Of a stretch of DNA of 49,954 nt, positions 19,578 through 23,817 are shown in pieces. Numbering within the stretch: position 1 is the first letter of the stretch; each line of letters starts with the position of its first letter. Origin of the DNA: Burkholderiales bacterium (GTDB taxonomy: Bacteria > Pseudomonadota > Gammaproteobacteria > Burkholderiales > Burkholderiaceae_B). The DNA lies in NCBI GenBank assembly GCA_021300475.1, contig JAJTDO010000016.1:1-49954 (forward strand). Reading direction: 5' to 3'. The translations under genes and the position numbers were made by a program. Under the pieces are notes generated by a model that saw only the letters and a program-made list of their open reading frames with translations, had not been told where the DNA came from and did no database searches.

Positions 19578-19688
19578 GAACATCCACTCCGGTAAAACAG
19601 GTTGGCAAGGTGTAAACGCTTAGTAGCCACAGTCTAAACGAAGTCGATAAGATGCTAGGAAAACAATGTTTTACTCGGAGACAAATAA

Positions 19689-20462
19689 ATGAGTTCTACC
19701 CCTGACGCTTTAATCTATCTTTTAGCAGGAACGCTACGCGGATGGCGTGGTGCCATGGTTTTAGACCGCAAAGGGCCAAAGCCTGAACGCATGCTGAAAC
19801 TGTATGACATTGAAGCGTCACCTTATTGCAGAATGGTTCGAGAAGTGCTGACTGAACTGGATCTGGAAGTTCTCATATTGCCATGCCCGAAAGGCGGGCG
19901 CCGTTTCCGGCAAGAGGCTGAAGCCATTGGCGGCAAACAGCAGTTCCCCCTGCTCATTGACGACAACACCAACACGATTCTGTATGAGTCCTCTGACATT
20001 TCAAATTACTTGATCAAGACCTACGCCAGCAAGCCGGAACGGTTCAAACGCCTGCCTCGTAGACTGGACCTTGCTTCCCTGTTCGTAGGGTCGGCCTTGA
20101 TGTACCGCTTCGGCGGCATAACCGGCTTGGCAGCAAAACCATCAAAATTGCCCCAAAAACCTCTGATTCTCTACAGCTTCGAGAGCAGCCCCTATTCAAA
20201 ACCTGTCAGGGCGCGTTTGTGTGAGCTTGAATTGCCTTACATCCTTCGAAACACAGGGAAAGGCAAAACCACAGACATCGGTCCTCCTATGTTCAGAGAC
20301 AAACTGTTCAAAGGACCGAAAGGAACAACACCCACAAGAGCGTGGCTGGAGGAAAATACCGGCAAAGTTCAGGTGCCTTACCTAATAGACGAAAACACTG
20401 GCGTGGCGATGTATGAGTCTCAGGACATTTTGAACTACCTCGACCTAACATACGGAAGTTAA
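19689..20462 (+). CDS. Tandem glutathione S-transferase N-terminal (thioredoxin-fold) protein
   Basis: A 257-residue protein made of two GST_N/glutaredoxin-like domains: residues about 36-118 (with ASPYC) and 158-256 (with SSPYS). Both end in the glutathione-binding YES-DI pattern (LYESSDISNYL and MYESQDILNYL). The first keeps the redox cysteine, while in the second it is replaced by serine. No C-terminal helical GST domain is present, so this is not a classical GST. It may be a glutathione-linked reductase or disulfide-handling protein. An amphipathic N-terminal stretch of about 30 residues is unlike a signal peptide. GGAG lies 8 bases before the ATG. Confidence 0.82.
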   Translation: MSSTPDALIYLLAGTLRGWRGAMVLDRKGPKPERMLKLYDIEASPYCRMVREVLTELDLEVLILPCPKGGRRFRQEAEAIGGKQQFPLLIDDNTNTILYESSDISNYLIKTYASKPERFKRLPRRLDLASLFVGSALMYRFGGITGLAAKPSKLPQKPLILYSFESSPYSKPVRARLCELELPYILRNTGKGKTTDIGPPMFRDKLFKGPKGTTPTRAWLEENTGKVQVPYLIDENTGVAMYESQDILNYLDLTYGS

Positions 20463-20482
20463 TCAGAAAAATACTGCTTTTT

Positions 20483-20500
20483 AAGTGTTGATCAACACTT
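20483..20500. promoter_or_regulatory. Perfect 18-bp palindrome (candidate operator)
   Basis: AAGTGTTGATCAACACTT is identical to its reverse complement. Its last two bases are the first two of a -35 hexamer, so a bound dimeric protein would block or direct polymerase. No T-run follows, so a terminator for the upstream gene is less likely. Confidence 0.65.
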
Positions 20501-20526
20501 GACTAGACTGCGATTGCGCCTATAGT
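20499..20526 (+). promoter_or_regulatory. Sigma-70-type promoter for the secreted unknown protein
   Basis: TTGACT (20499-20504) and TATAGT (20521-20526) are 16 bases apart, close to consensus. Transcription would start near 20533, giving a leader of about 35 bases that includes the strong ribosome binding site GGGGAGG before the ATG at 20569. Confidence 0.6.
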
Positions 20527-20568
20527 TGGACGTAACAAGGTGCAAGTCGCATGGTCTGGGGAGGCAGT

Positions 20569-21195
20569 ATGCGAACTGATTTTCTAAATCTTTTTCGCGA
20601 AAAAAAATCGCCGTTTCTACCAGGATGCGTGATTTCAATTCTGCTTTTTGCTGGTAACACAGCCCAAGCCGCGGCAGCCGTTCCGGAGGCTTCAAACTTC
20701 TCTTTTGGTCAATCGCCAACTTATTCAGCTCGAGAATACGATTTAAAGCTATTTGAATTTCCACGTGGGGTCAAGACCGGCCTCAGGTTTCGCACTGAAA
20801 GTTCGGATCTCTCCATGCCAGATCTGGGCGGTCCGTCGAGTTTTATCAATGTCGATGCAGAAGCACTGGCCAATGACATCGGCAAACCCAAAGAACGGGA
20901 TCTTGCCGCTGCAAACACCAGGAGCTTAAGGTCAAGTTGGTTAAATTATGCCAATGAAGATTTCAGGGTGGATCTCATACAAAGTCCTTCCAGATCCGGT
21001 GTTCGATTTCATCACTTGGCAACAGGGCTGAGATTTGAAGCGGAACGCAAGTTGCTGACGGGTTTGAGCAGCGTGTTCATTGGCGTTCGATTGTCAGAGG
21101 ACAAGCGATTCGAGCCTACTGCCGGGTGCACTTACACCCATCAAAACAGCGACTCAAGGTCCTTTTGCGGTTTGCGAGTGAGGGTGGGGCTCTGA
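20569..21195 (+). CDS. Exported protein of unknown function
   Basis: A 208-residue protein not recognised. The ATG at 20569 has GGGGAGG five bases upstream, and is preferred over an upstream ATG at 20551. A signal peptide spans about residues 18-38 (LPGCVISILLFAGNTAQA). The mature part shows alternating polar/apolar stretches (GVKTGLRFRTE, GVRFHHLATGLRFEAE, SSVFIGVRLSE, SFCGLRVRVGL) and ends in an aromatic-poor beta strand with Leu at the C-terminus, suggesting a small outer-membrane or periplasmic beta protein. Two cysteines near the C-terminus may form a disulfide. It is transcribed alone from a palindrome-overlapped promoter. Confidence 0.7.
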   Translation: MRTDFLNLFREKKSPFLPGCVISILLFAGNTAQAAAAVPEASNFSFGQSPTYSAREYDLKLFEFPRGVKTGLRFRTESSDLSMPDLGGPSSFINVDAEALANDIGKPKERDLAAANTRSLRSSWLNYANEDFRVDLIQSPSRSGVRFHHLATGLRFEAERKLLTGLSSVFIGVRLSEDKRFEPTAGCTYTHQNSDSRSFCGLRVRVGL

Positions 21196-21207
21196 TTTTT
21201 CGCTAGT

Positions 21208-21807
21208 TCAAGATTTTTTAGCACTTTTAGGGCGAAACGCAACCACTCTATCCGGATTTGTTTCCAGATAAGGCCCTTCCAGCAAGTCAATGCAGTAGGG
21301 TACCGCAGCAAAGATTCCATTGACGCGCACGCTGCCGTCCGGATGTTTCAACCCTTCCAACGTTTCCTTGATGGCCTTGGGTTGCCCAGGCAAATTCAAA
21401 ATCAGACACTTGCCACGAATAACCGCCACCTGACGGGACAAAATGGCAGTGGGTACGAAGCTGAGGCTGATTTGGCGCATCTGCTCGCCAAAGCCGGGCA
21501 TTTCCCGATCGGCCACCGCCAGAGTTGCTTCAGGCGTCACATCTCTTTTCGCAGGGCCGGTACCACCGGTTGTAAGCACCAGATCACATCCGACTTCATC
21601 CACAAATCTTTTTAATTGGGCTTGTATGACGGGTTGCTCATCGGGTATGACCAACGCATGAACCTCGAAAGGCGAGATCAGCGTCTCGCTCAACCAAGTT
21701 TGCAGGCTGGGAAGCCCCTTGTCTTCGTAAATGCCGGCGCTTGCCCGGTCGCTGATGGAAAGCAAACCGATGCGGGCAGGCTGCACCTGCGCTTGCGAAT
21801 CACTCAT
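21208..21807 (-). CDS. mog: Molybdopterin adenylyltransferase (MogA)
   Basis: A 199-residue protein of the MoaB/Mog family that adenylates molybdopterin before molybdenum insertion. The nucleotide/pterin-binding TTGGTGPAKRDVTPEA segment, LNLPGQPKAI and GLLSISDRASAG are family motifs. The product is needed by SoxC, the molybdoenzyme encoded earlier in this window. The start codon overlaps the darP stop in ATGA (21804-21807), so translation is coupled. The exact split between MogA and MoaB names is by homology only. Confidence 0.9.
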   Translation of the reverse strand: MSDSQAQVQPARIGLLSISDRASAGIYEDKGLPSLQTWLSETLISPFEVHALVIPDEQPVIQAQLKRFVDEVGCDLVLTTGGTGPAKRDVTPEATLAVADREMPGFGEQMRQISLSFVPTAILSRQVAVIRGKCLILNLPGQPKAIKETLEGLKHPDGSVRVNGIFAAVPYCIDLLEGPYLETNPDRVVAFRPKSAKKS

Positions 21808-22406
21808 TCTTGCGTTCCTTCATCCAGACCATCTTCTTCTTCGCCCTCAACTGGAGCAGCCGGGTCGCCAGGAACAGAGACCCAGCTTTTGATCAGCTTG
21901 AACAACTCCCGCGCAGACTTTGGAGGTTTGTTTTTTTCCTTTTCATTTCTGGCGTTGCGTATCAGCGTGTGCAAATCGGTGTCCAAGGCCACCGGGTAGG
22001 CGCGTATGAACTCAGCAAGCAAGGTGGGTTGCTCAATGAGCTTGTCTCGCCACTGCTCGGCTGCATGCATGCGGGTGACGTCGAGGCGTTGGTCCAGGGT
22101 TTCCCCGGCAATCCACTTCTCAAGCAACTCGCCATCCTCATTGCGCATCACTTTACCGATGTACTGAAGCTGTCTGCGACGGCCTTCATGGCTGCGGGTG
22201 CGCTGGTATTCACGGATTGCTTCAAGCAGTGCAGGGCCGGCAGGCGAACGCTTGAGACGATCCATCGGCATGTCTGCCAAGGCTTGTCCAGTTTTCTGCA
22301 GGGCGGTCATCTGGCGCTTGACCAAGGACTTGCTGGGACGGCTGTCATCGTAACCAGCGTCGTTTTCAAGCTTATTTTCAGGTTTATTTGGGTTTGACTT
22401 TCTCAT
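21804..22406 (-). CDS. darP: Ribosome biogenesis factor DarP (YjgA family)
   Basis: A 200-residue, highly charged protein of the DUF615/YjgA family, which associates with late 50S ribosomal assembly intermediates. The family signature is clear in SLVKRQMTALQKTGQAL, RLKRSPAGPALLEAIREYQR and RRRQLQYIGKVMR. Start is the ATG at 22406; the open frame extends further but into the divergent promoter region. It is divergent from pmbA with a gap of 43 bases, a common arrangement in betaproteobacteria, and ends with an acidic tail. Confidence 0.92.
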   Translation of the reverse strand: MRKSNPNKPENKLENDAGYDDSRPSKSLVKRQMTALQKTGQALADMPMDRLKRSPAGPALLEAIREYQRTRSHEGRRRQLQYIGKVMRNEDGELLEKWIAGETLDQRLDVTRMHAAEQWRDKLIEQPTLLAEFIRAYPVALDTDLHTLIRNARNEKEKNKPPKSARELFKLIKSWVSVPGDPAAPVEGEEEDGLDEGTQE

Positions 22407-22449
22407 GGGCGGTATATTACGGGTTTCTGGATCAAATTGGGTCAATACA

Positions 22450-23817
22450 ATGAGTTTTGCGTACACGGCAGATCAACTTCGTCATCTGGTTCAATTCTCT
22501 CTGGCTGAAGCCAAGCGAATCGGGGGCACCGATGCAGCAGCCGACGTGTCTGAGAGCGTTGGACTTTCTGTCAGCGTTCGCTGCGGAGAAATTGAAACCA
22601 TCGAAAACAACCGCGACAAATCGTTCGGCATCACGGTCTACCAAGGGCAACGCAGGGGCCACGCAGCCTCGTCCGATTTTTCCGAATCAGCCATCGCCAC
22701 CACGGTCAAGGCAGCCTACGATATTGCCAGATTCACCGCTGAAGACGAGTTCGCCGGCCTTCCCGAAGAAGAGCTGCTTGAAATGGCCCCCCAGGATCTG
22801 GATCTCTACCACCCGTGGAAATTGTCCGCTGACAAAGCCGTTACATTGGCAAAAAAGGCGGAAGCAGCCGCCATGGACTATGACAAGCACATCAGGAACT
22901 CTGATGGCGCGGGGGTCTCCACCGAAACCGGCCAGTTTATTGCAGCCAACACACGGGGCTTCATGGGCGGCTACCCATACAGTCGTCACTCTTTTTCCGT
23001 ATCGCCGATCGCCCAGCTAAAAAAAGGCGACAACAGCACCATGCAGAGAGACTATTGGTATTCCAGCGCACGCAGGTCCAAAGACCTTGCAGACCCCAAA
23101 GCGGTGGGCATTTATGCGGCTCAGCGTGCACTGGCCAGACTCAACGCAAGAACCATACAAACACAACAATGCCCCGTCTTGTTCGAGGCACCATTGGCTG
23201 CCGGAATACTGGGTGGGTTTGTTCAGGCGGTGTCCGGCAGCGCGCTTTACAGAAAATCGAGTTTTCTGCTCGACTCATTGGGCAAGCCCGTGTTTGCAGA
23301 CCACCTGAGCGTCCATGAAGACCCGTTTACAACGCTGGGCATGGGCTCCTCACCTTTTGATGAGGAAGGGGTAAAAACGCAGGCCAGGCAAGTGGTCACA
23401 GACGGCATACTCGAAGGCTATTTCCTGTCTTGTTACTCTGCCAGAAAATTGGGCATGAAAACCACAGGGAATGCGGGCGGCTCGCACAATCTCACATTAA
23501 CCAGCAAACACACGCAGAAAGCAGACACGCTGGCGGGCATGGTCAAGAAAATGCACCGTGGCCTGTTGGTCACTGAACTCATGGGGCAAGGGGTCAACTA
23601 TGTAACGGGCGACTATTCAAGAGGCGCCTTTGGGTTTTGGGTTGAAAACGGTGAAATCGCTTACCCGGTGGAAGAAATCACCATTGCCGGCAATTTGAAA
23701 GACATGCTGCGCTCCATCGTTGCTGTCGGCAACGATACGCTGGCCAGGGGTACAAAAATTACCGGCAGTTTGCTCATTGAAGGCATGACGCTGGCCAGTG
23801 GTGCTGTTAGCGAATAA
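22450..23817 (+). CDS. pmbA: Metalloprotease subunit PmbA/TldE
   Basis: A 455-residue member of the TldD/PmbA family. PmbA (TldE) forms a heterodimer with the zinc subunit TldD and takes part in degradation or maturation of small modified peptides such as microcin B17 and the antitoxin CcdA. The N-terminal segment with DVSESVGLSVSVRCGEIE and the C-terminal GNAGGSHNLTL and MGQGVNYVTGDYSRGAFGFWVENG are characteristic. The ATG at 22450 is used; the frame extends upstream without a site. tldD itself is not in the window. Cytoplasmic. Confidence 0.93.
   Translation: MSFAYTADQLRHLVQFSLAEAKRIGGTDAAADVSESVGLSVSVRCGEIETIENNRDKSFGITVYQGQRRGHAASSDFSESAIATTVKAAYDIARFTAEDEFAGLPEEELLEMAPQDLDLYHPWKLSADKAVTLAKKAEAAAMDYDKHIRNSDGAGVSTETGQFIAANTRGFMGGYPYSRHSFSVSPIAQLKKGDNSTMQRDYWYSSARRSKDLADPKAVGIYAAQRALARLNARTIQTQQCPVLFEAPLAAGILGGFVQAVSGSALYRKSSFLLDSLGKPVFADHLSVHEDPFTTLGMGSSPFDEEGVKTQARQVVTDGILEGYFLSCYSARKLGMKTTGNAGGSHNLTLTSKHTQKADTLAGMVKKMHRGLLVTELMGQGVNYVTGDYSRGAFGFWVENGEIAYPVEEITIAGNLKDMLRSIVAVGNDTLARGTKITGSLLIEGMTLASGAVSE

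Follow-up and report, generated by a model that had tools for sequence, protein, structure and literature searches.

A perfect 18-bp palindrome, AAGTGTTGATCAACACTT, lies immediately upstream of an orphan gene in the analyzed window, a stretch of DNA of 49,954 nt, and is a candidate operator through which a homodimeric transcription factor would act on this promoter alone, in this species or group of strains. We make this assignment tentatively, at close to an even chance; nearly as likely is that the promoter is constitutive or otherwise regulated and the sequence upstream of it is self-complementary by accident. The features concerned are as follows.

20483..20500, no strand assigned: candidate operator AAGTGTTGATCAACACTT, a perfect 18-bp palindrome, read from the sequence and present as a single copy in the genome
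20499..20504, + strand: -35-like hexamer TTGACT, its TT common to the palindrome, from the promoter scan
20521..20526, + strand: -10-like hexamer TATAGT, after a 16-bp spacer, from the promoter scan
20558..20564, + strand: ribosome-binding site GGGGAGG, 4 nt before the ATG at 20569, read from the sequence
20569..21195, + strand: predicted exported protein of 208 aa with no family assigned and a syntenic orthologue in genome G001, from the reading frame and homology searches

The first-pass annotation of this region had described a perfect 18-bp palindrome that shares two bases with a near-consensus -35, followed by a single gene with a strong ribosome site, and both descriptions were borne out: the final two bases of the palindrome (20499-20500) are the TT that opens TTGACT. 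No inverted repeat besides the 18-bp palindrome was found between positions 20400 and 20620 at the settings used. The two hexamers form a sigma-70-like promoter (TTGACT-16-TATAGT, 20499-20526) that matches the consensus at 10 of 12 positions and is the top promoter-like match in the region 19600-22600. The scan of that region gave two matches compared to 2.1 expected in shuffled sequence, and the consensus match is therefore not significant by itself. The direct adjoining of a perfect 18-bp dyad and the region's strongest promoter-like match, within an intergenic stretch of 106 bp, speaks for an operator and against mere accident.

Judging from the -10 hexamer, transcription would start near 20533, in which case the palindrome would reach from about -50 to about -33, with its centre near -41.5. 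Class II activators sit centred at -41.5. If a homodimeric regulator binds AAGTGTTGATCAACACTT, the position of the palindrome centre suggests that it may be an activator of this class, contacting RNA polymerase from there; alternatively, the bound dimer could block the -35 and act as a repressor. The product under control would be the exported, genus-restricted protein.

Every other perfect palindrome in the window is shorter than AAGTGTTGATCAACACTT. Among dinucleotide-shuffled windows, 22% contained one of 18 bp or longer, as would be compatible with chance, whereas only 26 of 1,500 shuffles (1.7%) of the window's 2,707 intergenic bp taken together and 8 of 20,000 shuffles (0.04%) of the 106-bp stretch holding AAGTGTTGATCAACACTT contained one, a rarity that argues for the operator. 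The palindrome was, however, picked by the first-pass annotation out of the whole window, which favours the chance reading; asking for an intergenic palindrome anywhere in the window comes closest to this selection, and the signal is thus suggestive, not strong. Scaling the intergenic-shuffle rate of the window to about 2.7 Mb, an extrapolation, we infer that approximately one intergenic palindrome of at least 18 bp per genome would occur by chance, a further point on the side of accident. Another perfect palindrome, TTTTTCGCGAAAAA (14 bp, 20591-20604), is located in the opening codons of the gene at 20569-21195; palindromes of 14 bp number five in the window, compared to about three expected.

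A structural role was also considered, in which the palindrome is an RNA or DNA element such as a hairpin or terminator at the 3' end of the glutathione-S-transferase-like gene that precedes it (19689-20462). It begins 20 bp past the stop codon of that gene (at 20462), and the sequence can fold into a 7-bp stem with a GAUC loop. This is the least probable of the readings discussed here, and by a long way improbable in itself, because on neither strand is the stem directly followed by a T-run, the site was not called as a terminator, folding was little better than in shuffled sequences (z -0.8 and -1.2) and a match in Rfam was lacking. An intrinsic terminator was rejected on the missing T-run and the folding scores, and the absence of a terminator-like appearance agrees with the operator reading. 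In the product of the upstream gene, two glutathione-S-transferase N-terminal domains stand in tandem (residues 38-115 and 167-252); a C-terminal domain was not found, and full-length relatives are confined to the same genus among 41 genomes.

The gene behind the palindrome (20569-21195) is real on the evidence of its syntenic orthologue, in which the reading frame and the C-terminal half are preserved, and this too supports the operator reading. A molybdopterin-binding (MoCF_biosynth) gene converges on it and ends at 21208, and the gene behind the palindrome is predicted to be a single-gene unit, provided that it is not co-transcribed with its upstream neighbour. The N-terminus of the product looks like a signal peptide in our own reading, made with no dedicated tool. 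The 208-aa protein had no match in Pfam, NCBIfam or PHROGs and none of weight among PDB sequences (best E 1.7), and the earlier description of an exported protein of no known family thus appears to hold. Apart from the syntenic orthologue, relatives were absent from genome contigs, plasmids, viral contigs and 399 genomes of the order. The gene is present in 2 of 269 genomes of the family, both of the same genus, and is restricted to this genus within the genomes searched. Structure prediction, which the first-pass annotation had proposed, yielded a model with a mean pLDDT of 32 and no usable fold. The description of the product as beta-rich is plausible, and the C-terminal strands that the model places at residues 125-188 agree with it, but at this confidence they prove nothing. 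The PDB fold search with the model gave nothing below E 0.3, a result that is meaningless at such pLDDT. With its signal-peptide-like N-terminus, lack of a family and fast divergence, the product resembles other lineage-restricted exported proteins of the Burkholderiales; it differs in having a single known relative, and therefore neither fold nor function can be assigned to it.

The sole orthologue found belongs to G001 (locus L003, 1252-1995), the single other genome of the genus among those searched, which is 66% complete; the same orthologue sequence also matches SXZD01000270.1, from Burkholderiales bacterium isolate F1-20-MAGs102. Next to the orthologue lie the same glutathione-S-transferase-like gene and, judging by the reading frames of the locus, apparently the same convergent gene. 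Overall identity of the exported protein is 39% compared to 75% for the syntenic glutathione-S-transferase-like neighbour, which indicates much faster divergence. The best-kept part of the pair is the C-terminal half, with the motif PSR-[ST]-G-[VL]-RFHH, the cysteines C187 and C200 and the terminal RVGL.

Conservation of the palindrome was not seen. The first-pass annotation had named its absence upstream of orthologues as refuting the regulated-gene reading, and it is indeed absent from the 201-bp region before the orthologue; the 18-mer was not found elsewhere in the G001 genome at up to three mismatches, nor as an exact copy in the other 268 genomes of the family or in viral contigs. These absences argue against an operator and for chance, although a single diverged orthologue is too little to exclude an operator that is specific to this species. 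Other inverted repeats precede the orthologue, e.g. TTGTGAGC-N12-GCTCACAA (L003, 1183-1210). Its two arms match the halves of the ideal lac operator but stand 12 bp apart, and the likeness is probably a coincidence.

A genome scan for further copies, as the first-pass annotation had suggested, made no regulon visible with the full 18-mer, its 14-mer core or the arms alone. With up to two mismatches allowed, the 2.73-Mb genome contains the 18-mer at this site only, and at three mismatches a single further match appears, within a frame of 912 codons. The 14-mer core at up to two mismatches was found at 33 places compared to two in the reversed control, and this excess was rejected as a regulon because 30 of the 33 sites are inside reading frames, almost all of which are long. 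Codon content, together with the presence in the reversed control of the usually rare CTAG, probably accounts for it. The three places outside clear long frames are the palindrome itself, L036:1941, at the start of a gene that we read as lytic-transglycosylase-like, and L038:1548, in a gap between reading frames; in the latter two, one half of the palindrome is broken. When any four central bases were allowed, the arms were found at eight places compared to nine in the reversed control, with one of the seven other than AAGTGTTGATCAACACTT outside a reading frame. A literature search for the palindrome motif returned the 12-mer in two papers, once in each, both on unrelated subjects. Additional copies at other promoters are usual for an operator and not obligatory; still, with the site unique in the genome and missing before the orthologue, the earlier portrayal of a tightly regulated gene failed in its testable predictions.

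In length, perfect dyad symmetry and overlap with the -35, AAGTGTTGATCAACACTT is like the operators of homodimeric regulators of the TetR, MarR, PadR, XRE and CRP/FNR types. It differs from them in that a second site, conservation in the orthologue and, in the annotation of its neighbours, an adjoining regulator gene are all missing; the last of these also weighs against the operator. The sequence of AAGTGTTGATCAACACTT does not allow the family of its putative regulator to be named. One possibility is a class II activator site of the CRP/FNR superfamily, with the arrangement AGTGT-N6-ACACT around a GTG-N8-CAC core that resembles CRP sites. The geometry is read directly from the sequence and the centre falls at -41.5 if transcription starts at 20533, as at class II CRP/FNR sites. 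Among the three CRP/FNR-like proteins of this genome, two (L049 and L050) have a recognition helix that opens with RRE. Nevertheless, we regard such a site as very unlikely. None of the three proteins resembles canonical cAMP-CRP; for the FNR-like one (L048), the expected preference would be TTGAT-N4-ATCAA, a motif absent here, as is TGTGA-N6-TCACA. The core alone is kept, base 5 of the half-site being T, not A, and its likeness to CRP sites extends to only three bases per half-site; the start position is itself deduced from the -10. The regulators L049 (1372-2154) and L050 (1414-2142) share an RREG recognition helix and lack the canonical CRP helix.

Even a perfect palindrome at a promoter is weak evidence for regulation when it has neither conservation nor a second copy. 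If genuine, the candidate would be a further single-gene operator before a genus-restricted exported protein; the orphan protein would gain a regulatory context, and general understanding would be unchanged. There is also a slim chance that the single exported orphan is controlled via AAGTGTTGATCAACACTT by a regulator specific to this species, possibly L049 or L050 with their RRE-type helices, which, if true, would represent a newly evolved one-gene circuit around a genus-specific protein.
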